Shown here piece by piece: positions 1 through 17,604 of a DNA stretch of 28,064 nt. The stretch lies in the IMG/VR virus record IMGVR_UViG_3300008339_000373, positions 1 to 28,064 of that record; one strand, 5' to 3'. The first letter of the stretch is position 1. The number at the start of each line of letters is the position of its first letter. The DNA comes from a virus. Under the pieces are notes generated by a model, which was given only the letters and a program-made list of their open reading frames with translations, made no database searches and was not told where the DNA came from. The position numbers were made by a program, and so were the translations under genes.

Positions 1-23
1 ACAATTGCGGCCCTGCATCATAA
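1..23 (+). CDS. C-terminal end of an upstream gene (partial)
   Basis: The third reading frame is open from the window edge and ends at a TAA at 21-23, giving the residues NCGPAS before the stop. The next gene starts 11 bases later, which fits the tight + strand packing of the whole window. In T4-like phages a baseplate wedge gene often precedes gp8, but six residues cannot identify it. That this is a real gene end is inferred only from the spacing. Confidence 0.35.
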
Positions 24-34
24 CGGATATAAAA

Positions 35-1837
35 ATGGCAAAAAAACAAAAAGACATTAAAAAATATTTATCTAGTATAGGAAAAACAGAAAATCTTCAT
101 TTTCTTATAGGAAAAACTGACAACTATATTGAAACTGGTAGCAATGAGGCTGGTATAGATTTATGGAATAATTCAATTTTTTCAAAGAGAGTCACTAGAA
201 ATGATGCTGTTGGAGTCATACCAAATATAACATGGAAAAGTGGCGGTGTTTATTATCCATGGAAAGCATTTTCTACATCAAATTCTGATTTCTATGTTTG
301 GAATAAAGAAAATGGAAATGTTTATATTTGTTTATCAAATAATGAATTCAATAGAAAAGATCTATCTGGAACAATTGCCTCAACATATATTCCAAATCAT
401 GCCTATGGAATAAAAAAATATCCAGATGGGTATACCTGGTTGCCAGTTTATAGAATAACTGGAGACTATTTAAGATTTGTTAAAACTAATTGGATTCCAA
501 TTATTTCATTTGAAGATTTTAAACTTTCCTCATTCAGTACAGAGCAGCAAAATATTGAAAGTTTCTGCGACGACTCAATTGATACTAGTGGTTATTGTTC
601 TCTGTATTTCAAAGATAACAAAAAAATAGCAATTACTGGTGGAACATTTGAGGATTATATCAAGGGTGAAAGATATAAAACTGTAGAATCTTCTTGTGGT
701 GAGTGTTATTATCTTTTTGATGAAAATAACACACTACAGCCAGTTTTTTATGGAAGCACTGGAGATATAGTAGAAAATATATCAATTTTAGATAAATTTG
801 ATGAGATAGGGCAATTAATAGCTGACAATAGAATTCCATCATCCTCTGCATTCTATGCATTATATGAGATAGCAAATAATGGTCCAGACGATGGTGCTAT
901 AATATCTGCATCGCTTAATTTAAGCGATATACCATTAAGTCAACTTGTTGTAAATCAAGAAAATCCAGAATTTACAGTTATTTCCTTAACTGGATCTGGG
1001 GCAAGAATAAGATTAAAAACTTATAGAAATATAAATGGAAAATTTATAATTAATGGAATTGAAGTTATTGAGAACGGTAAAGATTATAAAGATATAATTT
1101 TAGATATTTCATCTAATATTTTTGCATCAAATATAAAATCACAAATTTTATCAAGTATAGAACTAAATCTTGATATTATTGATGGTTTAAATGTTGACCC
1201 ATACGATGTATTGGAATGTAAAAATGTTTTAATCGATTCTAGAATAGAAATTCAGGAACTAGATCTGGCTGGAGTCCCATATCCAACAGAATTCAATTTA
1301 TATGGATTGGTGTCCAATCCACTACAAAAACTTCCATCTGGCGATTATATCGTATCTGGATCTGAGTTGCCCCCAAATGTTACAAAAATTGCATCTAATT
1401 CTATAGAAGCAGCAGTTATTTATGAGGATGATATAGGAACTGGTACTATTACTAAAGCACCAGTAACTGGAAAAGTTTATGTTCCAACGATTGCAGATCA
1501 AACAGATCTAACCCAATTAGCAGCCTTAGTTCCAACTATACCACCATCACCAACCACCATTGTTTCCGCAAATATAACAACAGATGCAACACCAACATCT
1601 GAAGAATCATTTGTTACATTGATTGGAAGTAATCATGAAAATGTTTTGAATTCCCAATATGTAATTGATACTGATAATGAGAAGTTTTTCATCAATAGAA
1701 TAATTAAAGAACCAGATCTAAAACAATATAGCGGAAAAGTTCTACAAGTTGTAAAAACTCCAGCAAATATAAAAATTGCAGATACTAATGGAAATTTATC
1801 TAGAATAATTAGAATAAATATAATAAGAGAAATTTAA
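35..1837 (+). CDS. 8: gp8-like baseplate wedge protein, enlarged
   Basis: Probable baseplate wedge subunit, which with gp6, gp7, gp10, gp11, gp25 and gp53 would build the baseplate arms of a T4-type tail. The N-terminal 170 residues carry the gp8-family pattern: an early 'FLIGKT' strand, 'KRVTRNDAVGVIPNITWKSG', then 'FYVW..ENGNVYICLSNN', and 'PDGYTWLPVYRI' before 'WIPI'. The ATG at 35 is chosen; a TTG at 5 would overlap the upstream stop and gives an atypical start. The protein is 600 residues, against 334 in T4 gp8. Residues from about 200 to 600 are beta-rich and include a Pro/Thr-rich stretch near residues 490-520 that I do not recognise. The gene ends in a TAATG overlap with the next gene. 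The gp8 assignment rests on motif memory, not alignment; another wedge or fibre-connector protein with a gp8-like N-terminus is the alternative. Confidence 0.65.
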   Translation: MAKKQKDIKKYLSSIGKTENLHFLIGKTDNYIETGSNEAGIDLWNNSIFSKRVTRNDAVGVIPNITWKSGGVYYPWKAFSTSNSDFYVWNKENGNVYICLSNNEFNRKDLSGTIASTYIPNHAYGIKKYPDGYTWLPVYRITGDYLRFVKTNWIPIISFEDFKLSSFSTEQQNIESFCDDSIDTSGYCSLYFKDNKKIAITGGTFEDYIKGERYKTVESSCGECYYLFDENNTLQPVFYGSTGDIVENISILDKFDEIGQLIADNRIPSSSAFYALYEIANNGPDDGAIISASLNLSDIPLSQLVVNQENPEFTVISLTGSGARIRLKTYRNINGKFIINGIEVIENGKDYKDIILDISSNIFASNIKSQILSSIELNLDIIDGLNVDPYDVLECKNVLIDSRIEIQELDLAGVPYPTEFNLYGLVSNPLQKLPSGDYIVSGSELPPNVTKIASNSIEAAVIYEDDIGTGTITKAPVTGKVYVPTIADQTDLTQLAALVPTIPPSPTTIVSANITTDATPTSEESFVTLIGSNHENVLNSQYVIDTDNEKFFINRIIKEPDLKQYSGKVLQVVKTPANIKIADTNGNLSRIIRINIIREI

Positions 1838-2514
1838 TGGCTACTACTTATTTCGGACAAGTAACAGGAACACAAAAAACATCTTTAGGAAGAGAACCAT
1901 ATTATTCTAGATTCACTGAATTTGAAAAACTAGATAAAAATTATATTTTAATTGGTTTTACACCTGGAATGGCTGTTCAAGCAGCTGAATTGAATGAAAT
2001 TCAAGATAATTTTCAGAAAAATTTAACATTATCAAATTATATGTTTTCTTTCTGGACTCCAGTACTAGCTTCATATTTACAGGCCAATCCAGATGAAACT
2101 GTAGAATCCATACTATGGAACGGTGCTGTACCTTTGAATCCAGCACAAGTTCAAGTTATATCTGGCGGTATTAGATTTTTAGTTGGATGGTATTATTATA
2201 CCCACCCAAGTGGTTTATGTTACTGGGTACATAATAATACACAGTTTGACTTATCCATTCAAATAAATTCATCAACAATTGGAACTTTTATAGGTTTAAC
2301 AATTGATTCGTCGGACATCTCTGCCTTTGAGGATCAATTATTATTTGATAATTCTGGTGGATTTGTAAATACAAGTTCTCCAGGTGCTTATAGAATTAAA
2401 AATTCAATTATTGAATTTACAAATACTGGAAATCTAACAGCAATCAAACCAATATTGACAGTAACTAGCAATGGATATGAATGGATGAACGGGATTCCAC
2501 TTTCAGGAGCATAA
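1837..2514 (+). CDS. Virion protein with PG-x-AVQAAELNEIQ motif
   Basis: A 225-residue probable structural protein. Near residues 40-60 it has 'GFTPGMAVQAAELNEIQDNF'. This motif (PG..LQA.ELN.IQ) is seen near the N-terminus of many baseplate or fibre-linked proteins of marine T4-like phages, where it precedes a helical segment. Here 'QKNLTLSNYMFSFW' follows, then a beta-rich C-terminal part with no motif I recognise. There is no signal peptide or membrane segment. It starts in a TAATG overlap with the gp8-like gene and ends three bases before the next ATG, so it is probably translationally coupled to the baseplate gene. A role as baseplate or short-fibre connector is inferred from motif and position; the exact T4 counterpart is unknown. 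Confidence 0.55.
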   Translation: MATTYFGQVTGTQKTSLGREPYYSRFTEFEKLDKNYILIGFTPGMAVQAAELNEIQDNFQKNLTLSNYMFSFWTPVLASYLQANPDETVESILWNGAVPLNPAQVQVISGGIRFLVGWYYYTHPSGLCYWVHNNTQFDLSIQINSSTIGTFIGLTIDSSDISAFEDQLLFDNSGGFVNTSSPGAYRIKNSIIEFTNTGNLTAIKPILTVTSNGYEWMNGIPLSGA

Positions 2515-2517
2515 TAA

Positions 2518-4827
2518 ATGGGTGTTGAATTAAACACATATAGCATAACAACATTAAATTCTACGAATTCTTTTTATGATTGGTTTTTAAAAGAAAATAC
2601 CGATATCATCGGTAAATTAAATCTTTTAAAGGTTTATGGTGCTACAAGTGGTGATGGGATTCTAGCCACCACTGATACAAGTGGTTTGCTTACTCTTTCA
2701 ATTGGTGGAACTTCTGGAATTATAAAATCTCCATTAATATTCAACAATACTGTAACATTCAATGGACAAGTAAATGTTGGCTCTGTAAATGTTCAAATTT
2801 ATGGAATGACTGCTGGTGCTGGATATACTTTTGGTATGCCAGTAAGAGTATACCAAAGTGGATCAGTAATAGGATATACAGCAGCAAGAGCAAACAATCC
2901 AGAGAATGCAGAGGTTATGGGTATAGTAACTTCTGTTGGAAATACTTATTCCTTTGTAACTGTTGCTGGAAAAATCGAGGGCGATTTTACAACCAGTTAT
3001 GGTAAAGGATTAAGTGCTGGTTGTGTCTATTTCTTAGATCCAACCAATCAAGGAAAAATTACCGATGAGGAGCCAGCAGTAACTGGTTATGTGTCAAAGC
3101 CACTTCTTCTTGGTCTTTCTGGAAATGCGGCAATAATTCTACCATATAGAGGAAACTATTTAAATTCAGATTTAACAAGTTATGGATCTAGTGGCTCAAA
3201 CCAAATAGTAATAATCATTGACTCTGCTTACAATGCATCATCAGAATTTAATTATATCGAAGTTGGTGATATTTTCTCCTATAGTCCATCTTATGCTGCT
3301 TCTGGGGCATTAGAAACTGGAAATAGGGTAAACTATGGTGGATGGTTCCATAGTATGAACTTGACCAATGAATTAAATTATATTGTTGGTGTTATAATTA
3401 ATAAAACTATAGACGGCAGTGGTGATGCCATATTAACAATTCAATTGTCTGGATATACAAATGTGTATGACATTGAAACAAATGGTGGAATATATCTTAC
3501 AGATAGTTTAGATTTAACCAGTAAAGCTGCAAATCCACAATGGATAAACACTGGTGGAGATCCTGGAACATATCTCCCAATCGCAACAATATATGATGAT
3601 TCTTCAGATTCTGCTGTTATTAATATTCGTTCAGTTGGTGGTCAGAGTAATGTATCACTAAGATCCACTAGTGGTGAAGCAACATATGTCGATAATACTG
3701 TCGATAATATGCTTGTCAATGGTAATTTTGAAGTATGGCAAAGATCTGAAATTGGAAGAGAAAATCAATATACAACTACTGGAAATGTTGTTTTTGCCGA
3801 CTTGTGGAGAAGACACGATGGACTAAGTGGAGATTCATCTACAAAAAATTATTATATAATTAGACAATCATTTGCCGATTATCAAAATGAAATTGAAGGT
3901 AATCCAAATTACTACATTGATGTAAAAGCACTTGGTGCAACTGGAATAACATATCCAGGTTTGATAAACGACGAATATCCATCATATGGAAGCTATAATC
4001 ATGTTATGGTTGGGCATGTTGTTCCAGGTTGTAAAGTCTTTGATGGTAAAAAATTAGCAGTATCATTTTATGGTAAGACTTCACACTCTTCATATAATGA
4101 TGTCAATGTTTATCTTGCAAGATATGCTGGAACTACACTATTGGATTATAAAGTGTTGGGAACTGCAAGTCTCGGAACAAACTGGGATAGATATGATTTT
4201 AATGTTGCAATTAGTGGTTTGACATCTTCAGCAACACCAATTGAAAATGATTACTGTGAAATTGGTTTTGATTTAATACCACTGATAACTCAAGCAAGAG
4301 CTGCTTCGGAATCGATAGCAACCAATGTTTTCATCTCTCTTGCTTCTGTAAATGCTGGAGCTGTGGATGGAAATATTCAGGCTCATAATTTCAAAACCTA
4401 TGACGAGCAATTGAGATATTGTAGGCAGTTCTATTATTCAACATATTCTAGATCTGAAAGAGTTGGATCTCCCACCATGATTTCAACATTTGATGTTGCG
4501 GAGTCAACTCCAATTATGGTTCCAATTCCAAATTATTCGGAGAAGGTGCATGAGCTGAATATTGAGATGCGCACAACTCCAAGCGTAACAATTTATTCTC
4601 CATATTCGGGATCTTCATCGGAAGCCTATAATAAAACAGCAAATAGAGAATTGATATTATGTAATGGAACATATGGATATGGCGGTGCTGAGAGAACTTA
4701 CACATCTGGAGATAGAATAACTGCAACTGCAAGAATAAATAGTGTTAGAATTAGTGCTGTTGCTGGAAATGTACCATATGATAAAATCTATTATCACTTT
4801 GTAGCCGACGCAGATTATCCAATATAA
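2518..4827 (+). CDS. Tail fibre or fibre-like protein with carbohydrate-binding-like domain
   Basis: A 769-residue probable receptor-binding or fibre protein. Residues 1-90 form a fibre-like N-terminal part. Residues about 95-212 form a compact beta domain ('GMPVRVYQ', 'AEVMGIVTSVG', 'AGCVYFLDP', 'NAAIILPYRG') that recurs alone in the following gene. From about residue 397 comes 'NMLVNGNFEVWQR' followed by 'FADLWRR', a signature I know from phage fibre regions resembling carbohydrate-binding modules (N-L-I-N-G-x-F-x-V-W-Q-R then A-D-R-W). Residues about 628-650 have 'DEQLRYCRQFYYSTYSRSE', which usually ends such regions. The start has an AGGAG eight bases upstream of the ATG. Sugar binding at the host surface is inferred; no catalytic residues are recognised. 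Confidence 0.7.
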   Translation: MGVELNTYSITTLNSTNSFYDWFLKENTDIIGKLNLLKVYGATSGDGILATTDTSGLLTLSIGGTSGIIKSPLIFNNTVTFNGQVNVGSVNVQIYGMTAGAGYTFGMPVRVYQSGSVIGYTAARANNPENAEVMGIVTSVGNTYSFVTVAGKIEGDFTTSYGKGLSAGCVYFLDPTNQGKITDEEPAVTGYVSKPLLLGLSGNAAIILPYRGNYLNSDLTSYGSSGSNQIVIIIDSAYNASSEFNYIEVGDIFSYSPSYAASGALETGNRVNYGGWFHSMNLTNELNYIVGVIINKTIDGSGDAILTIQLSGYTNVYDIETNGGIYLTDSLDLTSKAANPQWINTGGDPGTYLPIATIYDDSSDSAVINIRSVGGQSNVSLRSTSGEATYVDNTVDNMLVNGNFEVWQRSEIGRENQYTTTGNVVFADLWRRHDGLSGDSSTKNYYIIRQSFADYQNEIEGNPNYYIDVKALGATGITYPGLINDEYPSYGSYNHVMVGHVVPGCKVFDGKKLAVSFYGKTSHSSYNDVNVYLARYAGTTLLDYKVLGTASLGTNWDRYDFNVAISGLTSSATPIENDYCEIGFDLIPLITQARAASESIATNVFISLASVNAGAVDGNIQAHNFKTYDEQLRYCRQFYYSTYSRSERVGSPTMISTFDVAESTPIMVPIPNYSEKVHELNIEMRTTPSVTIYSPYSGSSSEAYNKTANRELILCNGTYGYGGAERTYTSGDRITATARINSVRISAVAGNVPYDKIYYHFVADADYPI

Positions 4828-4839
4828 TAGGAAAAAAAT

Positions 4840-5310
4840 ATGCCATCCTGTAGTACCAGTTCAAATATTAAATCATCAAACACAGTCGTTAGTTCATCAG
4901 ATGGTGGAAGTAGACTTTCCTTTTTACTACAATCTTCAGCCATTGTAGCAACTGGACTCTCTTTGGGTGATGCTATTTATTACGATGTTGCCAGTGGCAA
5001 ATATACAAAATCAAAAGCAGATAATGCCGTTACCGCTGAAGTTTTTGGTGTGGTTGAATCGATAGATGGAAGTGGTAATGCAAATGTAGTCATGTATGGT
5101 TCTATTGGTTTAACTGGAAACATTAACTTGAGCACAGGCGGTGCTGGTGGACATGATATTTACTTTTTAAGTGGATTAACTGCTGGTAAATTGCAGTCAT
5201 TGGCTCCTACAGATTCGAACCATATAGTGAAAGCTGTTTATCAGGTAGCACCACATGGTGCTTATACTGGTGTCGTTGTAAATTACATAGGATATAAAGT
5301 TCAAGCATAA
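4840..5310 (+). CDS. Small protein duplicating a fibre domain (decoration-like)
   Basis: A 156-residue protein made of one beta-rich domain with a Ser-rich N-terminus. Its order of segments ('GLSLGDAIYYDV', 'AEVFGVVESIDGSGNANVVMY', 'GHDIYFLSGLTAG', 'HIVKAVYQV') follows that of residues about 95-212 of the preceding fibre ('GYTFGMPVRVYQ', 'AEVMGIVTSVGNTYSFVTV', 'AGCVYFLDPTNQG', 'YVSKPLLLG'). It is therefore probably a stand-alone paralogue of that domain. An AGGA lies upstream of the ATG. The stop overlaps the next ATG by one base (TAATG). A virion decoration or fibre-tip role is an inference; no function is proven by sequence. Confidence 0.55.
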   Translation: MPSCSTSSNIKSSNTVVSSSDGGSRLSFLLQSSAIVATGLSLGDAIYYDVASGKYTKSKADNAVTAEVFGVVESIDGSGNANVVMYGSIGLTGNINLSTGGAGGHDIYFLSGLTAGKLQSLAPTDSNHIVKAVYQVAPHGAYTGVVVNYIGYKVQA

Positions 5311-8150
5311 TGGCAGATGAACCATTCATACCAGATTCAAGTAATATCCCATATAGGGGTTTGACTTTTTTTCGTAATTTTATTGGTATAACTGGACCAA
5401 CTGGAAATCAAGGACCACAGGGTCCAGCTGGTGCTTGTGGTCCAAGTATTGTTGGCCCAACTGGACCAACTGGTGCTACACTAGTCAATATAATAAAACT
5501 TAGTGATAATTATTTTGAATTTTTCTATAGCGATAACACATCAAAACTAAGCCAATCTGAAATAGTTGGAATATCTGGGTATTCTAAAATATCTCTGGAA
5601 GGAATAAGTCTAGCCTCCTTTAGCGTTTTATCAAATTCTTTAATTGATCAAACTTATGACGGCGATTTTCCAGTTGATATACTGACATTTAAAGGTATAT
5701 CGTCAAACTATGAAAATATTTTAAGAATATATTACGACAACACTTCAAATCCACCAGAAACAGTTGTTGTGGATTATAGTGCAGTAAATCTTGGCTTTAT
5801 AGGAATTTCTGGTGGAACTCTTGGAAATTTACTTTACAATAGAACTGGGCAGAAACAATATGGAATTACAGCATCATTTTATGATGATTATGAAAAAGCT
5901 GTATTAGTACAAAATAAAAATATTCAAGAAGGCTTGGTAATTGCGAATCCAACTATATTCAGCAATTCATTGGCATGTTATAAAATAAATCCAGATGATG
6001 GTAGTGTCTTTTACATAAGTCCATACACTCAAAATTTGTCTACAAATAATGGAATAAATGGTTTTGCTTTCCTGATAAAGAAACCAGAACTAACCACACA
6101 CTCTAGTGGATTGTCTCTACACATTCCAAATGGTTTTACTTATGGTGGAAACATTTACTACGCTACTTATGAAGATGAATCAGATATATCAAATGGAATA
6201 ACATTTGCATCTAATTTTTTTGAAAGATTTGATTTATCTGGAATTGTTTGGCAAAATGATTCATATTTTTGTCCAGCAAAACAAAAATTTAATGTTATTA
6301 ACATGATATCTTTAGGTGGAAGATATCTTGCAATCCCCGCTCAATATGATTCGGCACAAGCAGATATAACATCAACTCACGATACAATACCAACAACATG
6401 TTATCCTTTTGAAGATGAGATTGATGTTAATGCATCTGTAAACTTTGCAGAAGGATTATGTTGTCCAGTTAGCTGTTTTGGATCTGTGTCTGAATCATTT
6501 AAATCAAATTGTCCTGGATATTTTTATTATGGAAAAACTTTAGGCGATTCATCTCTATGCTCTTCACAAGGATTCTGCTGTTTTTACAATGGTAATGCAA
6601 GTGCAGATCTAACATTTTGTCAATGCAAGGCAATTGATCCAAATGCAATTTGGCATCCATATAGAGGAATAGTTACAAATAGTTCATTCTTTCAATGTTC
6701 CCAAACTGTTGTTGAACAGGAACAGGGTGCTTATTGTACTGGAGTAAATCAAACAGGTGGAATAACATCAAAATCTAATGCTATATTGAATCAATGGTAT
6801 TTTCATGGAACATGTACTAAAAATTTTGGAACTGATAATGGGCAACTTGCATATATTTGTCAGGATGGTTATGGTGCGTGTTGCGATAAAGGAATAACAT
6901 GTGAAAATAATGTTATTTATAGTGATTGTTTTGCAGATAATAAAAGTTATTCTGGTGCAAATTTAACATGTCAAGAAATTAATTGTTCACCTGATAACAT
7001 TCCATGCTTTCAGGGAGTTCCTGGAATAGGGGAATTGAAACAGGGAGATGAATTTGCTGGTGGTGTCGTTGCTGGCTTTTTTGATTTTTCTAATATAGTT
7101 TCTGGACATAAAGTCTTTGATAATTTTAATTATGATGTTAATTTATTTGGAAAGCCACCAGCAGACTTAACAAATAGCTATAATAATATTTTTCTAAATG
7201 CTAGTGGATTTTATAAGAGAAATTATAGATCTCTTAAAGATTATTCAGGATATGGTGTAAATGCGTATCCTGAATCTAATATATGTGGAAATTCTGATAC
7301 ATTTATTATAATTGTTGCAAAAGAAGATATAGAAATAAATGGAAATAAAAATTTTATATGGAGTAAAAATAATCTTTCTTGGGGTCCATTATATGATCCA
7401 ATAACATTAACAAAAGACACAGAAGATATTTTAACTAAAACATATGCAGATGAAGGATATATTTTTGAAAATAATTCAACTATATCTGTAGCATCTTATG
7501 CTTCTTTATATTCAAATTCTTTCAGAAGTTGTGCTACGGTAAGAACGATAAATGATTATGCCATCTGGATTTATAATGCACCCAAGCAATCTATAAATGG
7601 TTCATGGACTAGAAATTATGGGTTATATAATACTGGTAGACTATGTGGTGCTAGAATTTCTTCTTTTGATCCAGCATATGCACCAGATCCAATATATGCT
7701 AATAGTACTAGTTTAGCCGATGCTATAACAAAATTTAATATAGATAATCCACCAACATCAGATATAGAATCAAGTTGGTTTGTTCCTAGTCATGATGAGA
7801 TGGGATTTTTATTTAATTTAGTTTTAACTGATACTGATTTTAATTTAAATTCATCATTATTATTGAGTGGATTTGAACCAATTATTGGAAGTTATTGGAC
7901 ATCTACTGGATCATTTGATCTAGCTTTATTAAATGGTTTTGCAACATCAACAACAATAGGAACAAGAGCTTGGGCATATGATTTATTTACAACTCCTTTT
8001 GGATCTTCTACTTATTCTTTCGATGTAGCATATACAAGAACAAGTGAGAGAAAAATAAGACCAATTAAATTAATAAGATGTGATGGAAGACATCCACTAC
8101 CAGGTTCAAATAATTATAAATTCTGGAGATTCCCAATCATAAATATCTAA
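5310..8150 (+). CDS. Collagen-like fibre with Cys-rich modules and Lcl-type C-terminal domain
   Basis: A 946-residue probable fibre or adhesin. Residues 29-57 are collagen-like Gly-X-Y triplets (GPTGNQGPQGPAGACGPS, one interruption, GPTGPTGAT). A beta-rich part follows to about residue 380. Residues about 382-567 are cysteine-rich with CC pairs starting modules 'GLCC', 'GFCC' and 'GACC'. From about residue 570, 'GDEFAGGVVAGFFD' opens a domain with 'IIIVAKEDIEINGNKNF' and 'SSWFVPSHDEMGFLFNL' near 822. 'GSYWTSTGSF' follows near 860 and 'ERKIRPIKLIR' near 914. This W-x-V-P-S-x-x-E-hydrophobic / YW-S-S / R-P-I pattern is that of DUF1566, the C-terminal domain of Legionella Lcl. There is no signal peptide, as expected for a virion protein. 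The role in adsorption is inferred. Confidence 0.65.
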   Translation: MADEPFIPDSSNIPYRGLTFFRNFIGITGPTGNQGPQGPAGACGPSIVGPTGPTGATLVNIIKLSDNYFEFFYSDNTSKLSQSEIVGISGYSKISLEGISLASFSVLSNSLIDQTYDGDFPVDILTFKGISSNYENILRIYYDNTSNPPETVVVDYSAVNLGFIGISGGTLGNLLYNRTGQKQYGITASFYDDYEKAVLVQNKNIQEGLVIANPTIFSNSLACYKINPDDGSVFYISPYTQNLSTNNGINGFAFLIKKPELTTHSSGLSLHIPNGFTYGGNIYYATYEDESDISNGITFASNFFERFDLSGIVWQNDSYFCPAKQKFNVINMISLGGRYLAIPAQYDSAQADITSTHDTIPTTCYPFEDEIDVNASVNFAEGLCCPVSCFGSVSESFKSNCPGYFYYGKTLGDSSLCSSQGFCCFYNGNASADLTFCQCKAIDPNAIWHPYRGIVTNSSFFQCSQTVVEQEQGAYCTGVNQTGGITSKSNAILNQWYFHGTCTKNFGTDNGQLAYICQDGYGACCDKGITCENNVIYSDCFADNKSYSGANLTCQEINCSPDNIPCFQGVPGIGELKQGDEFAGGVVAGFFDFSNIVSGHKVFDNFNYDVNLFGKPPADLTNSYNNIFLNASGFYKRNYRSLKDYSGYGVNAYPESNICGNSDTFIIIVAKEDIEINGNKNFIWSKNNLSWGPLYDPITLTKDTEDILTKTYADEGYIFENNSTISVASYASLYSNSFRSCATVRTINDYAIWIYNAPKQSINGSWTRNYGLYNTGRLCGARISSFDPAYAPDPIYANSTSLADAITKFNIDNPPTSDIESSWFVPSHDEMGFLFNLVLTDTDFNLNSSLLLSGFEPIIGSYWTSTGSFDLALLNGFATSTTIGTRAWAYDLFTTPFGSSTYSFDVAYTRTSERKIRPIKLIRCDGRHPLPGSNNYKFWRFPIINI
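8138..8145 (+). promoter_or_regulatory. T4-type late promoter box (CATAAATA)
   Basis: CATAAATA matches 7 of 8 positions of the T4 late promoter TATAAATA and lies six bases before the ATG of the next gene, which has no Shine-Dalgarno sequence. It overlaps the last codons of the preceding gene. By T4 geometry transcription would start at about 8151, next to the start codon. Confidence 0.4.
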
Positions 8151-8151
8151 T

Positions 8152-11100
8152 ATGTCGATTTTAGGAAGCTCAAATTTTGTCTTTTCAACGATCAGTACAA
8201 GAGTTTTTGGTGTTACTGGTCCAACTGGCCCTGTTGGTATAACTGGTGCTACTGGAATCACTGGACCTTTGGTTCGTGGAGCCACTGGAAATACTGGTTA
8301 TGGTATAACTGGATTTACTTCGACATCTTCAAATATTTTAACTATATTTTTAGGTGATACTGGAACGATTCAAATTAATATTCAGGGTGCAACCTCAGAG
8401 TATGAAAATCAGTATGCTGTTGTTAAGGGTGTAACTACTAATGGAATATCCGTATTATATCATTACAACGAAGTTCAAAAATCTCAAAATTTATTAGAAT
8501 TGGGAAAAACTGATTATCTGAAAATTAAAGGTATAACTTTTAGAAGTTCCACAGGATCTATAGAATCAGTTTCAGTAACATCTAATCAAATTATAGTTCA
8601 GGGTAAAACCTATAATTTTTTCCCAGTTGGTGAAACTGGAAATATTGCTTATATCTACACACCAACAAAGGCAAAGGGAGTTCCGAATAGTTATTGGGAT
8701 GCTACAACGCAGACCTTAAGAATTCCATTAGCTGGTGAAAGAATAACATTATACAACACTAAAAATTTTAATGAAACACTAGCAAATTTAACCCAGGATA
8801 TAGTGGGTTATACTGGTGCAACTGGAATAGCAGTTCCAGTTTATTCATATTCTCCAGATATTGGCTATAATGTAAATAAACAAAGATTTGAAGAAAAGAT
8901 AAACAATACTTTAAATGGATTTACATATACACCGAATCTCTTCATTGGAAGTAGTGGTGGTGTCGATTTAGATTATAAGTTTTTACCAGTTACTATTAAG
9001 AAAAATTCTATATTTACTCCACAAGTAATAGGTGCAACTGGGAATATAGGTTCATGCTGCTTCTGTGCGTTAAATGAGACAGTATCAGATATTAAATGTT
9101 TAGATTATGTTACAAAGCAATATTGCTATGATATGGGTGGAAGTTTCAGCACGGTAGAATGCGTTAAAAGATATGTTTCAAGTTTAGAAAATGGAAGTGG
9201 TGATTGTTTCGCAGAAGGTGCTTGCTGTGTTAACGGGGAATGTATAAGCACCTCACAAGAACTATGTTTGAAATATAATGGAATTTTTTACCCAAATGAA
9301 GTCTGTCATCCAGTGAGAGGTAGTATTGGTGAGGGATATTTTAATTGCCCAAGTTATTGTCCTCTAGATGATCAAACTGGAAAATGCTGCGTAAAAGGTA
9401 AATGCTACGATGATATAACAAGTTTTGCTTGTGAAAGCATACCAAATAGTTCATTTCATCCAGGAGAAAGCTGTGATGGTGATTGTGATCCAGATTGCTT
9501 AGATACCTTACGGGGTGGATGCTGCAAAGCTGATGGTAGTGAATGTAACGATGGTTATACACCAGTAGAGTGCAAAGAAAGTGGTGGAATTTTCTTAGGG
9601 CCAGGTGAAGTTTGTGGTCTAAATTCCTGCTGCGGAAACAACTTCAGAGGTGAATATTTCAATTCATCTGAAGCGTGTAAATATTCAGAATTGATCCCAT
9701 GTTTACCAATAGGGACTTATGTTGGTGGTGGATATCTTGTTGGTATTGTTGGAGCACCATCACCCTGTTCAGTTTATTCAAATCCATTGGTTGCTGAAGG
9801 TCAACCACTTTCTTGTAGATATTTTCCAAGAGGATTTATGCCAACAGATCCAACTTGGAAATATAAAAACTGTTTTGGTGAATCTGGTGTAACTTTTGGC
9901 ACTACTTCCCTTCCTCCATCATCACTTAATATCAAGTACTTTACAAGAACCTATCCAGAAGTTTTGACAGAAGATAAGCAAAGAATAAATTCTTGCTTGT
10001 TAAAAGCTGGTTTACCATTCATAATGCAAACATATGAAGGTGTTGCCAGACAAACTGCAACATTAAATACTCCAGTTGAGTGGGATGATGGAATCATGTT
10101 CAAGGATAACCTAGAATATGATATTAGAAATGGAACTTTCTCATATTCATTAGAACATCTTTCAAATATTTCAATGTTTGAACCTTTAGGTTTTGTTGGC
10201 TCCTCAACTTATCTTAAGTTGGCAAAACAATTTTACGGTGAAACTCAAATTCATATGCTTTGGGCTATAATCGTTGCCCCAGAAGATATTGAAATATCTG
10301 GTAGTAAGAATTTGTCTTGGGGAATATCTGAATCAAGAGTAAGAGGTAATGGTGAATTTGGATATAATTTGGAACCAATTTCAACATGCATGATTGACGG
10401 TCTTCTAACCACAAGAATGCATGACGAAACTTCCAAAGAAAATACTTATTTTTGGTTTAGAGATTTAGCTGAAAACGATTCAAATACTGGGGTAGATGCA
10501 CTTGCTTTTGATAGATTCGTATTCTATAGCAATGGAGCCTATCCAAATAGTAAGTGGCAAAATAATACAATTGAAAATACCATTGAAACAAATGAAAATG
10601 AATTTAAAAATTCATATGCAATTTTATGGGATAATATGACTGATTCCGACAGCTGTATGAAGCAAATTTCTGTTTTGAATCAAACTGGATTAAATGGATA
10701 CAATGATTGGTATGTTCCAAGTATCATTGAATTGAACCATATTTATGGAAATCTAACTGAACTAAATACTGCAATAGCATTAAATGGTGATGATGTGTTT
10801 GCAGCACAAAAATATTGGAGTTCTTCCAGTATGTGTACTCTACACAAGTGGAATGTAAATAATCATTTGGATAAGAAATACTATGAAATATTCGAAACTC
10901 CAAGTGGAGAATTTAATTCTAAATTTAGATTTACAAAAAATGATTTTAATCTAACAGAAGATAAATTATACGATTTAAGTATGAATGCTTGTGCTGGTGA
11001 AAAAATGCTAACGCAAAATTTTTCAAATGGATTTGTAGAATCACAAAATAGAGATTCTAAAGTAGCCAGATTGAGGCCAATAAGAAGAATTCCAATTTTA

Positions 11101-11190
11101 GTTTATGAAGATTCTTCTTATTCTATAAAACTAGCTGAGGATGATTTTAACTATAATTCATGCCCAAGTTGTCCAGATGGAACTACATAA
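8152..11190 (+). CDS. Collagen-like fibre with four Cys-rich modules and Lcl-type C-terminal domain
   Basis: A 1012-residue paralogue in architecture of the preceding gene. Residues 20-38 are uninterrupted Gly-X-Y triplets, followed after a break by GATGNTG at 43-49. A shared N-terminal domain with 'GDTGTIQINIQGATSEYENQ' follows. Residues about 301-500 hold cysteine modules starting 'GSCC', 'GACC', 'GKCC' and 'GGCC', each with a pattern close to CC..G.C......C...GG.F.G..C....C. The C-terminal part from about 505 has 'WAIIVAPEDIEISGSKNLSW', 'GYNDWYVPSIIELNHIYGNL' near 849-868, 'KYWSSSSM' and 'ARLRPIRRIPI', the DUF1566/Lcl pattern. No Shine-Dalgarno is visible; a late promoter box sits just before the start. 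Multiple disulphides would form only outside the reducing cytoplasm, consistent with an exposed virion fibre (inference). Confidence 0.65.
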   Translation: MSILGSSNFVFSTISTRVFGVTGPTGPVGITGATGITGPLVRGATGNTGYGITGFTSTSSNILTIFLGDTGTIQINIQGATSEYENQYAVVKGVTTNGISVLYHYNEVQKSQNLLELGKTDYLKIKGITFRSSTGSIESVSVTSNQIIVQGKTYNFFPVGETGNIAYIYTPTKAKGVPNSYWDATTQTLRIPLAGERITLYNTKNFNETLANLTQDIVGYTGATGIAVPVYSYSPDIGYNVNKQRFEEKINNTLNGFTYTPNLFIGSSGGVDLDYKFLPVTIKKNSIFTPQVIGATGNIGSCCFCALNETVSDIKCLDYVTKQYCYDMGGSFSTVECVKRYVSSLENGSGDCFAEGACCVNGECISTSQELCLKYNGIFYPNEVCHPVRGSIGEGYFNCPSYCPLDDQTGKCCVKGKCYDDITSFACESIPNSSFHPGESCDGDCDPDCLDTLRGGCCKADGSECNDGYTPVECKESGGIFLGPGEVCGLNSCCGNNFRGEYFNSSEACKYSELIPCLPIGTYVGGGYLVGIVGAPSPCSVYSNPLVAEGQPLSCRYFPRGFMPTDPTWKYKNCFGESGVTFGTTSLPPSSLNIKYFTRTYPEVLTEDKQRINSCLLKAGLPFIMQTYEGVARQTATLNTPVEWDDGIMFKDNLEYDIRNGTFSYSLEHLSNISMFEPLGFVGSSTYLKLAKQFYGETQIHMLWAIIVAPEDIEISGSKNLSWGISESRVRGNGEFGYNLEPISTCMIDGLLTTRMHDETSKENTYFWFRDLAENDSNTGVDALAFDRFVFYSNGAYPNSKWQNNTIENTIETNENEFKNSYAILWDNMTDSDSCMKQISVLNQTGLNGYNDWYVPSIIELNHIYGNLTELNTAIALNGDDVFAAQKYWSSSSMCTLHKWNVNNHLDKKYYEIFETPSGEFNSKFRFTKNDFNLTEDKLYDLSMNACAGEKMLTQNFSNGFVESQNRDSKVARLRPIRRIPILVYEDSSYSIKLAEDDFNYNSCPSCPDGTT

Positions 11191-11195
11191 TATCT

Positions 11196-11203
11196 TATAA
11201 ATA
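11196..11203 (+). promoter_or_regulatory. T4-type late promoter box (TATAAATA)
   Basis: An exact TATAAATA in the 22-base gap between two collagen-like fibre genes, nine bases before the ATG at 11213. No Shine-Dalgarno lies between box and start. T4 geometry predicts a transcript start near 11209, so the message would have only a few leader bases. Confidence 0.55.
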
Positions 11204-11212
11204 ATTAAAATT

Positions 11213-14200
11213 ATGTCAAGCAGCACTATTGGAACACATTCATATATCGGACCAAAAGGACCAAGTGGAGCAACTGGTTCAAGGGGTGTAACTGGAAGTA
11301 CTGGAAATACTGGTCCAATCGGAGCAACTGGTCCATATGGTGTTTATATATTATCATCAAATCCAACAAATACTGGAATAATTTTAAATCTTTCTGATGG
11401 ATCTACAAGCACAATAACTGGAAATTTTAGAGGTGCTACTTCTGAATTTTTGATCGCTGGAGTGAGTAGTGGTGACGGTATAACTTTATACTATACATAC
11501 TCTTCTGGTGAGTTGCAAGTAAAGGGTCTTTCGGCCACTGGTTCTTTATATTTGACAGAAGATGAAAACTTCGTTTACTTCAACACAACATTGGCAGAAG
11601 TTCAGTCGGAGTTAGATATTGCCAATTTGAATGTTGATACTTTGGTATATTTAAAGACAAATTATCAAATTTCAAGTACTACAATCGGTGTAACTTATGA
11701 CGGTGTTTATAACAGTGGAACCTTGGTATACGATGATAAGGGAAATACAAAATCAAAATTAAATTCTAGATCAAAAATTAAGTTTGTACAATCTAGAAAC
11801 ATTTTTGATACACCAACATATCTAAATGTTGATGATGCTGGATTATTCTATATAACGACTCCAAACGGTATTGCTGGATTCACTGGAACATTTAATAAAA
11901 ATGAATCAGTATCTATAACTTTAATTTTCCAAAATGAAGATATATGGTATTTTCCAGAAAATGTGTATTTTGAAAATGGTGAAAACTACTTAACTTGTGG
12001 AAAATCCATAGTCAACCTGACAACCACAACTCAAGGTGAGAGCTGGTCAGCGACGGTTGCTGCTAGAGGTTTTGATGTTGATAATGACAATTGTCCAATA
12101 ACATATACTTTTGGTTCTTGCTGTTATACAAATTTTGATGGAACTCTTGGTTGTAATGAATATGTCACAAAGGATCAATGCGATAGATTATTTGGAACAT
12201 TTAATGCCCTTCAATCGTGCATAAATTCCTGCGGTATAACTGGAATTTGCTGTTCAAATGGTAGATGTCTTGAAAATAGCAATCCAACTGAATGTGAATC
12301 ATTTGCTGGCACATTCTACAGGGGAATAACATGTGGAGCATACGCAAATGACCCACAGGGTACAAATTTTGGAAATAGATTGTGTCCATACTACTGTGGC
12401 GATTATGAAATTGTTTCCTGCTGTAAAGATGGTATATGTTTAGGTAGCAATTTTACCAGACTTTTATGTGAGGAATATCTTGGCGGTGTTGGATATACTG
12501 GATCATGTAACGATGTAAATTGTTGTGAAGATGCTGTTGGTGTTGGCCCATGTTGCACAACAGCTGGCTGTGTTGAACTAAATAAAGTTCAATGTGATGC
12601 AGCTGGTGGTGTTTTTATGGGTGAAGATTTAAACTGTTCAGAAATTAACTGTGATTGCATATATTCTGTTCCAAAAGGTGCTTGCTGTTATTCAGATGGT
12701 AGTTGTTCTATTTTATCATTTACCGCTTGTGTGAGTAGTTCTGGTTCTTATCTTGGAGATTACACCACATGTGATCAATGCCCACAACCAGAAGAAACTG
12801 GAGCATGTTGTAAAACAGACGGTACTTGCTCTGTTATAACTCCAGCACAATGTGCTGCGGCTGGTGGAAATTATAAAGGTAAAAATACAAATTGCTCAAC
12901 ATGTGATACTGGTGGTGATCTTGGTGCTTGCTGTGATGATATAAATCAAATTTGCGATCAAAGGACACAATCAGAGTGTGAAGCAATTGCTGGAAGATAT
13001 TTGGGTGAAAATACTGATTGTCAGCAATGTGGTTTTGGTGGTGGTGGTGGTCCCGATCCAGATCCATGCCCAGCAGTTGAAGATGAATCAGATTGTTTTT
13101 CAGCTCAGGCAAGAGTATTAACATGTGAAGGTGTTGTAGATTTTAATCGTGGTCAGGATGCTGTATCTTCACCAGTAAATAATACAAGTACAACTGTAAC
13201 ATTTTTATCACCAGATACAAGCGTAGATTCTATTTTGACCCCAGGAGTTGTAAACTATGCATTGTCTGAAACTAATCAAGTAATTACTGGTGCTCCAAAA
13301 ATATATTTCAGACAGGGTATTGGTGTAAAAGATATATTCATAACAAAGGAAAATTTTAGATCTATAACACCACAAACTGGAGTTGCTTATCCAAATTATT
13401 TTTACAATGGTGAACTAGCAACAGATCCAAATTTTCCACAGGGTGAAGATAAACTTGCTAGAATTTGCTTAAAAATAAAATGTGATACTGGAAATCCTGA
13501 AAATTTTAGATTTTATCTGTTAAGAACACATTATCCAAGACACTTTGCACATAATTTAGCGGCACTCAATGGATATGTCGATGAAAATGATAATCCATTT
13601 GAGTTTATTAATCCAACTGATCGAAGTTTAGAAGAAAATTTAGATCCAACTACTGGATCAATAAAATATAAAATTAGTGTTGATCTTGTTGATGAATTTG
13701 CATATATGCCATCTACTGTTCAGTTGAGAGATCAATTGAATAATCCATTGTTGGGATTGAAGCGAGAACCAAATAGAAGTGCAGACTTCGATATTAATGG
13801 AAATGCACTATTTAATACAATTCCACAAGAACTTACACCAAGACCAGAAATAATTCCAGGTGGATTGACCACTGCCTCAGATTTGACTGATTATTATCTC
13901 AAATTGGGTCTTAACATAATGGGACTCACTAAAGGTTTTGAAAATTCTACTGGATATGTAAAAGGATTTACAACTGCTGGTGATATAGTAAATTTTAATA
14001 GTTCTGGAAGTATTAATATTTCTGGAACTTCAAAGCCCTTTCAATATACGACCAATACAACTTCTAGAATGTTTGTTACTTATAATTATCCATTAATTAA
14101 TACTAATTATACCGTTTCAACAAACATATCACAATTAAAAGTATATAATATTTTAGAAACATTTCAATTACTAACTCCAGTTTCAACCTCTGGGGATCAA

Positions 14201-16150
14201 AGTCCATTTCATGATCGAATGAATGCGATCATTCAGTTTTATTATAATAAAGAATTACTAGATAGATCTAATAACAATCTATATACTGCATCAGAATCTG
14301 AACCTGGTAAAATAAATCCACAAAATAATAGCAGTGCTGTCTCTGCCACTATAAATTCTAGTGGAAATATAGTTGGAGGTATAGGAATTCCAGTTGGTTA
14401 TTTTAATATGGGTTACACCTATATGAGAGCTTCCGATTCCATATTTCCAACTTTTCCAAATTCTAATACAAATAGTATAAGATCAGTATATAAAAAATAT
14501 GCGAGAACATCAAATTCATTTTCAAATACATTCATAAATAATATTGAAGCCGAACAATCAGATTCAGTACCATATCAATTTTATGGATTAAATTATCCAG
14601 GACATCCATTAACAGTAGACCTATTGAATCCAAATTATCAGGCTAGAAAAGAAACTACTGGAGGTTTTGGTCCTGGTGGTTCGACAGTAATACCAGCCGT
14701 TGTATCTGCGAATACTTATAAAACAAAACCATATGATATTATATACGACAGCGGACATATAGAATTTAATCCGAATGACACAAATGCTCCATATAAAAGA
14801 TATCTTTCAGAAAGCAATATTGGAAATTTTAATACTAGCACTCAAATAGTAGAACAAGATTATACAACTGAAAGAGTTATCGGTTATTTATCCAAAGCTA
14901 TTAATGATCCTTACGATCAAGACAGCATAACTTTACCATATGGTAGAATGAAGTATTTGGGAGATGGTGAATTTGTCTTCTGTATAACTATACCAAATCC
15001 AAAAGATTATATTAATTACAATGATACAGGAGATGGAGAAGCTGGAATTGATATTGATCCAGATAAATTTACAGATAGAAGATTAGTTGCTCATAATACT
15101 CTCAGACTTGTTTTATTCACAGACATAAAACCAACTGAAAATGATTCGGTTAATCAAAGTACTAGATCTAAAATAACATTAGGAAATGAATGTCACGGTT
15201 TAGCCTGTGGATTTTCTGTTCCAAATTATGAACCAACATGTCCACTCTGTAAGGATTATCAAGTTCAAAATGAAACAAATTATGTTATAGGTTCTGGAAT
15301 TCCAACTTTAAGTGGTTGGGGTGTTCAAACTATTAGAAACAATCCAGATTGTGACGAACAAACTACATCCCTTTGTCAATTTGGCTCTCAAGATCCAAAT
15401 TGTTCAGAATGTTTACCTTGTTGCTTTTCTCCAAATAGAATAGACAAAGCCATAATAACATCTTGTCAGGATTCTGAATCTTCTTGTGGTTGTAGAGGTT
15501 CTATAGAATACAATAGTGCTCAATCTTGTCCAACTGGTACAGTAAGTTGTGTTGAAGTCGGAGATCCATGCATACAGCATAGAACTGTTTTAAATGTTTT
15601 AAAGAATCAATTAGGTGGAGATTTTACATGCACTGGTGGTGGATTAATTCAATATTGGTTCCCACTTCCTGATGTCTTTTTAGATACAGCCCCCGATTTG
15701 GTTCAATATTTGCCAAGATTTGCCATCTATACTTCTCAGGGAAGTAGCACTTCATCAATAAGAGATAAAATGTGTGCTCCAGTAAATTCTGGAACAGACG
15801 AGTGCCCAAATGAACAAAATAGTATTTGTGGAAATTTCTGTTTAACAAAGAATGACGGAACGAAGATAACCTGTCAACAATTTATAGATCAATATAATAA
15901 TAATCCTGGATTTGAAAAAATAACAAATATACCTCAAAATCTTTTACTAAATTTACAACAAAATCAGGTAAATATTCCAGGAGAAATGTTCTATAGAGAA
16001 AGACCAAACAATAGCTGTGTAACTGCATTTGCTGGTACTGTTTTAAAGAAACTATATATTTCTGATACCGATTATGTTTGTGTACCTGTAGATGCAACTG
16101 ATCTTACGGCAATAAACAATCTTGAAGATTGCGTACAAGGAGAATCATGA
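11213..16150 (+). CDS. Giant collagen-like protein with seven GACC cysteine modules
   Basis: A 1645-residue probable virion fibre, the largest gene here. Residues 13-43 are ten uninterrupted Gly-X-Y triplets. Next comes the shared N-terminal domain with 'FRGATSEF' near residue 80. Residues about 300-607 hold seven tandem cysteine modules beginning GSCC, GICC, VSCC, GPCC, GACC, GACC and GACC. The best-kept read like 'GACCKTDGTCSVITPAQC' followed by 'AAAGGNYKGKNTNCSTC'. A glycine/Asp-Pro linker (GGGGGPDPDP, about 610-620) joins them to a long C-terminal part (about 620-1645) that I do not recognise. That part contains a second, differently spaced cysteine cluster at about 1340-1460. The Lcl-type ending of its neighbours is absent. 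The stop overlaps the next ATG (ATGA). Binding to a host surface or scaffold role for other fibres is inferred. Confidence 0.6.
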   Translation: MSSSTIGTHSYIGPKGPSGATGSRGVTGSTGNTGPIGATGPYGVYILSSNPTNTGIILNLSDGSTSTITGNFRGATSEFLIAGVSSGDGITLYYTYSSGELQVKGLSATGSLYLTEDENFVYFNTTLAEVQSELDIANLNVDTLVYLKTNYQISSTTIGVTYDGVYNSGTLVYDDKGNTKSKLNSRSKIKFVQSRNIFDTPTYLNVDDAGLFYITTPNGIAGFTGTFNKNESVSITLIFQNEDIWYFPENVYFENGENYLTCGKSIVNLTTTTQGESWSATVAARGFDVDNDNCPITYTFGSCCYTNFDGTLGCNEYVTKDQCDRLFGTFNALQSCINSCGITGICCSNGRCLENSNPTECESFAGTFYRGITCGAYANDPQGTNFGNRLCPYYCGDYEIVSCCKDGICLGSNFTRLLCEEYLGGVGYTGSCNDVNCCEDAVGVGPCCTTAGCVELNKVQCDAAGGVFMGEDLNCSEINCDCIYSVPKGACCYSDGSCSILSFTACVSSSGSYLGDYTTCDQCPQPEETGACCKTDGTCSVITPAQCAAAGGNYKGKNTNCSTCDTGGDLGACCDDINQICDQRTQSECEAIAGRYLGENTDCQQCGFGGGGGPDPDPCPAVEDESDCFSAQARVLTCEGVVDFNRGQDAVSSPVNNTSTTVTFLSPDTSVDSILTPGVVNYALSETNQVITGAPKIYFRQGIGVKDIFITKENFRSITPQTGVAYPNYFYNGELATDPNFPQGEDKLARICLKIKCDTGNPENFRFYLLRTHYPRHFAHNLAALNGYVDENDNPFEFINPTDRSLEENLDPTTGSIKYKISVDLVDEFAYMPSTVQLRDQLNNPLLGLKREPNRSADFDINGNALFNTIPQELTPRPEIIPGGLTTASDLTDYYLKLGLNIMGLTKGFENSTGYVKGFTTAGDIVNFNSSGSINISGTSKPFQYTTNTTSRMFVTYNYPLINTNYTVSTNISQLKVYNILETFQLLTPVSTSGDQSPFHDRMNAIIQFYYNKELLDRSNNNLYTASESEPGKINPQNNSSAVSATINSSGNIVGGIGIPVGYFNMGYTYMRASDSIFPTFPNSNTNSIRSVYKKYARTSNSFSNTFINNIEAEQSDSVPYQFYGLNYPGHPLTVDLLNPNYQARKETTGGFGPGGSTVIPAVVSANTYKTKPYDIIYDSGHIEFNPNDTNAPYKRYLSESNIGNFNTSTQIVEQDYTTERVIGYLSKAINDPYDQDSITLPYGRMKYLGDGEFVFCITIPNPKDYINYNDTGDGEAGIDIDPDKFTDRRLVAHNTLRLVLFTDIKPTENDSVNQSTRSKITLGNECHGLACGFSVPNYEPTCPLCKDYQVQNETNYVIGSGIPTLSGWGVQTIRNNPDCDEQTTSLCQFGSQDPNCSECLPCCFSPNRIDKAIITSCQDSESSCGCRGSIEYNSAQSCPTGTVSCVEVGDPCIQHRTVLNVLKNQLGGDFTCTGGGLIQYWFPLPDVFLDTAPDLVQYLPRFAIYTSQGSSTSSIRDKMCAPVNSGTDECPNEQNSICGNFCLTKNDGTKITCQQFIDQYNNNPGFEKITNIPQNLLLNLQQNQVNIPGEMFYRERPNNSCVTAFAGTVLKKLYISDTDYVCVPVDATDLTAINNLEDCVQGES

Positions 16151-17604
16151 GTATTCAATTTAGATCAAGAGTTAAATCAGTAAAGGATTTTGGTTCTGAT
16201 CTAAAAAAAATTGGAACTTGTTGTTATACAGATGGAACCAGCGACCAAATAACATTTTATGAATGTTTTATCAATAATGGAACTTTTTTGGTAGGTGATA
16301 ATGTTTCTTGCCCACAACAAGGGGAAATTGGAAATTGTTTTGCTTGCTCTTATCTGACATTTGATCAAAAAATACAAGTAGCAAACAATCCAGCAGTTCT
16401 TGGTGCGAATCCAGATTGGGGTAAAGCTACAACATCACAATGTGAGTGCTCAAGAATAGGTGGAGTTTTTCATCCGACAAATCCCTTAAATCTTCTAGGT
16501 ATCGATGCAAGAATTCCTCAATCTTGTTGTTATTTTGCATATGATGCCTCTGGATTTCCTATAGGAATAACATGTGAGAATGTTTGTTCGGAGAGAGAAT
16601 GTTCATTGAGAGGTATAACATTCAATGATGGAACATTGAGAAATGTTCCAGTTTACAACAGTTCTGAAACTTGTGCGACATCTAACTGCTCAACATCTGG
16701 ACTTACAGATTTCCTTTACAAACAAATGGCAGTTGGTGCTGCATCTACCACCACAGAGGATGTTGGTGCATGTTTTGATTTGACTAAAATTACTACTGGA
16801 TTTTCATATGAGTGCAATCTTTCATTTAAGGATGATTGTTTTGGATACTGGATTTCTCCAGAAACTGAAGAAGATGGTTTTGTCTTCTGCAATTCAAGCT
16901 TTTCACCAGAAAATCCAACGAAACTAGCAAATAGAAAAATAGAACCATACAGTATGTCCGAGGTTGATTTTGACCTTTTAGGGTTGACTTCTGGTGATGA
17001 ATTCCAGGGTGGAATTTATATAGGAAAATTTACAGTAAATTCGTCATCCTCTAAAGTTTATGGATCTTTGAATCTCAAAGAACCAGTTGAACAACACTAC
17101 AATGATACGACACCAAGAGATGTTTATTCGAAATGGGCCTTGATTGTTGATAAATATGACTACTATGCAGTTTATATGTCTCCAGAAGAGCAAACTTCTA
17201 CGATGCCAAATACATCGTTATCGGATGGTTTTTACAATTGCTATGGGGATAGAATAAATTTCTATGGGCATGGAACAAAACTCATAAATACTATAACAGG
17301 ACAAATTAGAAGAGGTTTTGCCGATTATTACATACCAAGCATCATAGAATTGTATTATTTATCAAATAAAATAAATAAAGATTCTTCGCTAAAGACCAAG
17401 TTGAATATCAAGAATAAATTAGCTTCTTCTTCTATATTTTATGAAAATATTTTATCAAATAGTAGTGAAAAATATAGTTTTAATGGGCATGTATTTGTTT
17501 ATGGGCAAAATTTTACAAATACCACAAAGTTTGGATATACCGTATTGATGCCAACTGACACGAATGTATATTTAAGATTATTCAGAAAGGTGATTTTAAC
17601 ATGA
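16147..17604 (+). CDS. Cys-rich fibre-like protein with degenerate Lcl-type domain, no collagen
   Basis: A 485-residue protein. The ATG at 16147 is preferred over in-frame starts further upstream because an AAGGAG lies six bases before it and it forms the ATGA overlap with the preceding stop. Residues about 20-180 carry three cysteine modules ('GTCCYTDGTSDQITFYEC', 'GNCFAC', 'QSCCYF') like those of the collagen-type fibres, but there is no Gly-X-Y stretch. From about 278, 'SGDEFQGGIYIGKF' matches the opening of the C-terminal domain of the 946-residue fibre, and 'FADYYIPSIIELYYL' near 391 matches its V-P-S-x-x-E-L core. The later YW-S-S and R-P-I parts are weak, so the domain is diverged or reduced. 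It ends in an ATGA overlap with the next gene. Probably an accessory partner or chaperone of the other fibres (inference). Confidence 0.55.
   Translation: MSIQFRSRVKSVKDFGSDLKKIGTCCYTDGTSDQITFYECFINNGTFLVGDNVSCPQQGEIGNCFACSYLTFDQKIQVANNPAVLGANPDWGKATTSQCECSRIGGVFHPTNPLNLLGIDARIPQSCCYFAYDASGFPIGITCENVCSERECSLRGITFNDGTLRNVPVYNSSETCATSNCSTSGLTDFLYKQMAVGAASTTTEDVGACFDLTKITTGFSYECNLSFKDDCFGYWISPETEEDGFVFCNSSFSPENPTKLANRKIEPYSMSEVDFDLLGLTSGDEFQGGIYIGKFTVNSSSSKVYGSLNLKEPVEQHYNDTTPRDVYSKWALIVDKYDYYAVYMSPEEQTSTMPNTSLSDGFYNCYGDRINFYGHGTKLINTITGQIRRGFADYYIPSIIELYYLSNKINKDSSLKTKLNIKNKLASSSIFYENILSNSSEKYSFNGHVFVYGQNFTNTTKFGYTVLMPTDTNVYLRLFRKVILT

Follow-up and report, generated by a model that had tools for sequence, protein, structure and literature searches.

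A conserved four-gene cassette of a T4-like phage group encodes putative host-recognition tail fibres with collagen-like stretches, cysteine modules and C-type-lectin-like tips

Four adjacent large genes, designated F1 to F4, were found in the tail locus of a T4-like virus, and their products are quite probably host-recognition tail fibres of a T4-like myovirus that end in lectin tips, with F3 and F4 probably acting together. This reading is based on the order of the domains, the relations between sequence profiles, the fold predicted for F4 and the synteny of the cassette among relatives.

Results

Genomic setting of the cassette

The window, that is, the whole stretch of 28,064 bases analysed here and the entire IMG/VR record IMGVR_UViG_3300008339_000373, represents part of the structural gene region of a T4-like virus. 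Its genes run from the baseplate wedge through small proteins to F1-F4, a small conserved gene and the neck genes, and downstream of the cassette lie the head-tail adaptor, head closure, sheath stabiliser, terminase subunits, sheath, tail tube and portal. The phage tail context of the cassette is supported by the wedge upstream and by the neck, tail and head genes downstream. Pelagibacter phage Mosig and marine cyanophages, which are filed in Kyanoviridae, have portals that share about 50% identity with that of the window. The phage group is known here from metagenome contigs alone, and the cyanobacterial marker psbA was found in none of 12 related records, none of which is known to be complete.

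All four reading frames of the initial annotation were recovered on the plus strand: F1 at 5310..8150 (946 aa), F2 at 8152..11190 (1012 aa), F3 at 11213..16150 (1645 aa) and F4 at 16147..17604 (485 aa from its ATG). They are followed on the same strand by P0009 (17601..18101), a small protein with conserved cysteines. Three genes lie between the wedge and F1 (1837-5310), all with counterparts in the relative L004; the first has matches to two PHROGs without assigned function and a weak one to DUF4815, and the second and third matched nothing in Pfam and PHROG searches. The gp19-like tail tube gene is present as three tandem paralogues (23967-25626), with at least two in the L004 lineage before the contig end and a single one wherever else among the relatives this region was found.

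Alignment searches of IMG/VR yielded 58 F4 loci, or 44 distinct ones after identical ends had been merged. The order F1-F2-F3-F4 was observed in 16 of the 17 loci with more than 8 kb upstream of F4; in the exception, L065, the frame in the first slot is cut by the contig end and carries the lectin motif. F3 preceded F4 in 21 of 22 loci with more than 3 kb upstream, the exception being L052, and P0009 directly followed F4 in all 43 loci with more than 700 bases downstream.

Collagen stretches, beta domain and cysteine modules

F1 and F2 share the order collagen, beta domain, cysteine modules and Lcl_C-like (DUF1566-like) domain, and this order, which had been read from the sequence at the outset, was borne out by profiles and motif counts. 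Gly-X-Y runs lie near the N-terminus of the large F1-F3 proteins, encoded at 5385..5480 in F1 (where PHROG tail-fibre matches cover the stretch), 8209..8313 in F2 and 11249..11347 in F3, all on the plus strand. The longest unbroken runs were 7, 7 and 11 triplets, respectively. The single proteins scored 13.3 (F1), 11.6 (F2) and 21.8 (F3) bits against Pfam Collagen, all under the curated cut-off of 27.2, and the collagen stretches are therefore short. The beta domain that follows was aligned by hhalign with E-values of 1.9e-7 (F1-F2), 3.2e-8 (F1-F3) and 1.4e-4 (F2-F3), the scores being raised by a collagen remnant with which the compared regions start.

The cysteine modules are encoded on the plus strand at 6459..7007 in F1, 9049..9702 in F2 and, as an array, 12107..13030 in F3. 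The motif GxCC occurred 3 times in F1, 4 times in F2 and 6 times in F3, against means of 0.06, 0.14 and 0.32 in 1000 shuffled sequences (highest counts 1, 2 and 3); in F4 it occurred once, against a mean of 0.06 and a highest count of 3. The bare CC pair did not rise above the highest shuffle in any of F1-F4. A module HMM built from nine rows, two of them F3 modules of the window, gave best domain scores of 18.3 for F1, 26.2 for F2 and 40.8 for F3, while the best of 120 shuffled proteins reached 3.9. The tandem spacing GACC-xx-(D)G-x-C-x7-C is present in the F3 modules (up to 40.8 bits). The same HMM found no module in F4 of the window and exceeded 8 in 3 of the 41 F4-family rows. F4 had been described as lacking collagen, keeping cysteine modules and ending in a reduced DUF1566-like domain; the first and last points stood, and its front is cysteine-rich but holds such modules only in degenerate form.

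Neither Pfam nor NCBIfam searches reported a model covering the phage modules. In the PDB, the vitamin D receptor came up as a weak profile match (E 0.088) to the F1 region with the cysteines; this was taken as chance. The cysteines may form disulphides or may bind metal instead. Since phage proteins fold in the cytoplasm, any disulphides would have to arise at a late stage.

The C-terminal domains of F1, F2 and F4

The C-terminal domain of F1 (7020..8147, plus strand) is a long Lcl_C/C-type-lectin-like domain with the motifs GDEFAGG ... WFVPSHDE ... YWTST ... RPIKLIRCD, and that of F2 (9703..11187, plus strand) carries WYVPSIIEL ... YWSSSS ... LRPIRRI. F2 of the window matched PF07603 (Lcl_C/DUF1566) with an E-value of 3.8e-6, at 27.6 bits for the whole sequence and 29.1 as a domain, which is below the cut-off of 34.9. 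Neither F1 nor F4 of the window, searched alone, gave a PF07603 match. At E-values up to 0.1, Lcl_C was found in all 18 F2-family rows, in 8 of 18 F1-family rows (best 0.0017) and in 5 of 41 F4-family rows (best 0.00085); an F1 relative in one record matched PF07603 at 4.6e-6. Among ten closer related records, which were searched first, seven had an Lcl_C match and none was above the cut-off. In 16 related records the match was present in every one and exceeded 34.9 bits in five, each time in an F2 relative (567-1038 aa); two of the five are near-identical and reach the cut-off only with neighbouring in-frame matches added.

Comparison of the C-terminal profiles with each other gave E-values of 3e-10 (F1-F2), 3.4e-8 (F1-F4) and 2.5e-7 (F2-F4), against 0.33-0.86 in six reversed controls. 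With profiles of just two sequences each, F4 matched F1 and F2 weakly and over a short length. At the level of sequence profiles, the link of the tips to Lcl_C/DUF1566 thus becomes firm once relatives are included. The DUF1566-like ends noticed initially were accordingly recovered by different routes: in F2 directly, at a score under the cut-off, in F1 through its relatives, and in F4 through relatives and the predicted fold.

F4 carries its short C-type-lectin-like domain at 16957..17601 (plus strand). The F4 model, built from 41 rows, had a pLDDT of 85, with low confidence in the N-terminal peptide (residues 1-15). In VIA-align, residues 271-482 matched the C-terminal domain of Lcl (8q4e) with Z 10.4 and an rmsd of 2.9 over 120 of 131 residues; a Bacteroides fimbrial protein (4eps) was matched at Z 10.9, the next row stood at 5.4, and C-type lectins followed at about 4-5. 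Foldseek also placed 8q4e first, but with an E-value of 0.05 and a probability of 0.91, not below 0.001. A C-type-lectin-like fold for the F4 C-terminus is supported by this model. For F1 the model (18 rows) was of low confidence, with a pLDDT of 66; VIA-align gave 4eps at Z 12.8 (rmsd 4.2, 201 residues) and C-type lectins next at 4.9-5.7. Direct Foldseek with this model returned poor hits only, nothing sensible, and 8q4e was absent from its VIA-align rows, an absence that proves nothing either way. The fold expected at all these ends is supported for F4 by prediction; F1, whose model is poor, may share it. For F2 the evidence of a shared tip comes from sequence profiles alone, the structure models covering F4 and F1. 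Searched against the PDB, the sequence profiles gave nothing significant: those of F1 and F4 did not find Lcl, and that of F2 found it only at E 0.89.

F3 ends in a conserved tail

The collagen, beta domain and cysteine modules of F3 are followed by a C-terminal half that is poorly conserved or exchanged between relatives, and by a conserved tail. The expectation that the third protein ends differently held: no Lcl_C domain was found in F3, and the W/Y-x-x-P-S/T-x-x-E motif occurred in none of 24 distinct F3 proteins longer than 800 aa. Of the eight relatives compared, two aligned with F3 past residue 590 or so (26 and 22% identity), and six gave no hit. Judged from these alignments, much of the C-terminus of F3 is diverged or exchanged among relatives, tail aside.

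The tail (16013..16147, plus strand) has the pattern K-x-Y-I-x-x-T-D-Y-x-C-V-P ... E-D-C. An HMM of the last 70 residues only matched 32 of 33 distinct proteins whose end adjoins F4, and the count was the same after model rows at least 50% identical to the tested tail had been dropped. The control set, 210 other C-termini drawn from these loci with F3 frames left out, gave no match. The single miss, L078, belongs to a divergent branch. L052 is among the hits; there the F3 slot beside F4 is taken by a frame of at least 2460 aa (positions 2-7381). Collagen runs were not found in this frame, and apart from its end, a variant of the F3 tail, it is not recognised as F3.

On the other side of the gene border, F4 opens with a conserved peptide. 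The ATG at 16147 rather than the TTG at 16129 is most likely its start, since the relatives begin with M-S-x-Q-F-R-S-R there. A peptide of this kind opens F4 in 32 of the 41 rows, the other rows being cut inside the protein. In 15 of 33 cases, as at the F3 stop in the window, the F4 start overlaps the final base of the gene before it.

Divergence of the tips and the trimerisation alternative

Over eight relatives, identity was 25-39% for the F1 lectin domain, 29-58% for the F4 tip, 59-81% for P0009 and 60-84% for the gp13-like protein, and the exchanged C-terminus of F3 was less conserved than any other part. Host recognition is suggested by the tail position, by the collagen and lectin-like tips, and by how fast the F1 tip and the F3 C-terminus diverge, as parts exposed to the host would; weak constraint could also account for this divergence. 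These figures also bear on a rather unlikely alternative, in which the Lcl_C-like domains would be mainly trimerisation caps that fold the collagen and register the fibre, and the variable C-terminal half of F3 would be the real receptor binder. Such a role for F3 would fit its position as the least conserved and exchanged part, and a cap would fit the fairly conserved F4 tip; the authors of the Lcl structure also suggest that DUF1566 could promote trimer formation (PMC11162425). Against this, F4 lacks any collagen that would need registering, divergence is fast in the F1 tip too, and the diversified DUF1566 and C-type-lectin folds described in phages and microbiomes point to binding (PMC8143477, PMC4159848).

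Variable repeats are described in DUF1566 proteins of Bacteroides phages (PMC8143477), and the cassette might by analogy be a target system of a diversity-generating retroelement. We consider this very improbable: the reverse transcriptase domain PF00078 was found in none of the 26 related records searched, none of them known to be complete, and six overlapping loci on four other contigs (two of 54 and 57 kb) differed from the window by only 0-1 bases in the overlap.

Charge of the tips

The net charge of the C-terminal domains was -7.0 in F1 and -19.7 in F2, both acidic, and +3.0, mildly basic, in F4, as totals over each domain. The C-terminal domain of Lcl binds through a basic outer face (PMC11162425). 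Given acidic tips in F1 and F2 and a mildly basic one in F4, the binding of sulphated glycans by Lcl should not be transferred to them. The Lcl equivalog model NF046116 of NCBIfam, with a cut-off of 500 bits, gave 11.6 for F1, 11.9 for F2, 14.0 for F3 and no score for F4. The analogy with glycosaminoglycan binding by Lcl, which had been drawn at the start, is not supported by these two results.

The same charges bear on the idea that the phage uses the fibres to hold on to particles, mucus or matrix and not to a host receptor, as Lcl attaches to glycosaminoglycans (PMC11162425). The architecture, with the F4 model, is Lcl-like, and several different lectins per virion would suit general attachment. 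An Lcl-like site for sulphated glycans is nevertheless unlikely on the acidic F1 and F2 tips, F4 being mildly basic, and we regard matrix attachment as improbable.

Discussion

Taken as host-recognition fibres, F1 and F2 would each be a complete fibre with an N-terminal root, a short collagen triple helix, a beta domain, a spacer of cysteine modules and an Lcl_C tip of C-type-lectin-like fold; the tip would bind some surface structure, probably a glycan, on the bacterial host. In F3 this type of stalk would carry no lectin tip, whereas F4 would be a tip that lacks the collagen and the beta domain. The two probably act as a pair, with the conserved F3 tail and the conserved N-terminal peptide of F4 as the likely contact. 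From the domain order, the profiles, the F4 fold and the synteny we infer the location of F1-F4 on the particle, their role in adhesion, their assembly into trimers, the binding of glycans and the contact by which F3 and F4 would form one fibre. The F3 tail could instead serve the folding of F3 itself.

A more specific version, which we put forward tentatively and hold to be rather less probable than its opposite, is a multi-lectin system with one fibre split over two genes: F3 would supply the stalk and a docking tail, F4 the docking tip, and the modules would be spacers stabilised covalently once the phage has left the cell. If the fibre is split in this way, whatever lies between stalk and tail in F3 would be freely exchangeable without loss of the tip.

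Should the fibre reading be true, a group of T4-like phages recognises its hosts via several lectin tips on stalks of collagen and cysteine modules, the fast-changing parts of the cassette probably set host range, and the cassette is a testable case of one fibre made from two genes. F4 and the P0009 gene are ready markers for finding such phages.

Several elements are known already, namely collagen-bearing side-tail proteins of phages (PMC3368898), DUF1566 in phage proteins (PMC8143477) and in targets of diversification (PMC4159848), and collagen combined with DUF1566 in Lcl (PMC11162425). The domain combination, the four-gene cassette and the relation of F3 to F4 appear to be new, none of them having been found in isolated phages or in the print searched; a literature search found no description of the cassette. 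In tblastn against 50,697 phage records, S-SM2 and Mosig included, F1, F2 and F4 found no relative, and a divergent F4 and a divergent F2 found nothing. For F3, these records gave hits to mycobacteriophage proteins, all confined to short collagen-bearing stretches at the N-terminus, and these were set aside. The F4 profile, searched against bacterial and archaeal genomes, gave 36 pattern stretches, none of them a relative.

Among the phages of comparable organisation, S-SM2 has a large VrlC gene ahead of its neck genes, in a slot comparable to that of the cassette. Mosig has two putative tail-fibre genes before the neck with ten other genes in between, and these differ from the cassette in carrying CBM_5_12 (three stretches in one of them) and glycine-rich domains. 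The side-tail fibres of E. coli O157:H7 prophages bear collagen triplets in large tail-locus proteins, as F1-F3 do, and recombinant collagen-like proteins of E. coli prophages form trimers and are likely side-tail proteins (PMC3368898). Coiled-coil and C-terminal trimerisation domains are described for those fibres, whereas a lectin-like tip and cysteine modules are not named in the available part of that paper (PMC3368898).

The closest counterparts of the cysteine modules were observed in proteins, mostly of Planctomycetota, with the same spacing, GACCxxDGxC-x7-C-xxx-GG, often in tandem. At least 117 such stretches were obtained, and among the 80 listed, 64 titles name planctomycetes (counted by eye), many of these hits coming from the same few assemblies. 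The repeats form tandem arrays of up to 19 modules, by a loose count, in the planctomycete proteins of loci L095-L174. Unlike the phage fibres, none of the 82 GACC frames in the 80 listed loci has the lectin motif or a run of at least eight collagen triplets, and the titles are of bacteria, not phages; no family name was found for these proteins.

For the tips, BACOVA_04982 of Bacteroides ovatus (4eps) was the top VIA-align match of both the F4 and the F1 models, and a DUF1566 target of a retroelement has itself been modelled on 4eps (PMC4159848). DUF1566 domains are known in phage proteins, those of Bacteroides phages included (PMC8143477), and occur in phage proteins among BFVD entries; a loan from Lcl itself therefore need not be invoked. 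The cassette is unlike BACOVA_04982 and these DUF1566 proteins in having four genes with collagen and cysteine modules, and no reverse transcriptase was found with it in the related records searched.

The nearest architecture is that of Legionella pneumophila Lcl, a trimer, in which, as in the cassette, a collagen-like stalk precedes a C-type-lectin-like Lcl_C domain (8q4e), a combination of collagen and DUF1566 that is known in Lcl and its homologues (PMC11162425). The cassette is unlike Lcl in that it lies in a phage tail locus, has only 7-11 triplets and places a beta domain and cysteine modules between collagen and tip; the F1 and F2 tips are much longer and acidic, F4 is without collagen, and all scores are far under the Lcl equivalog cut-off. 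The settings known for the Lcl_C domain are thus extended by a conserved phage cassette, with a tip charge that argues against the known ligand of Lcl.
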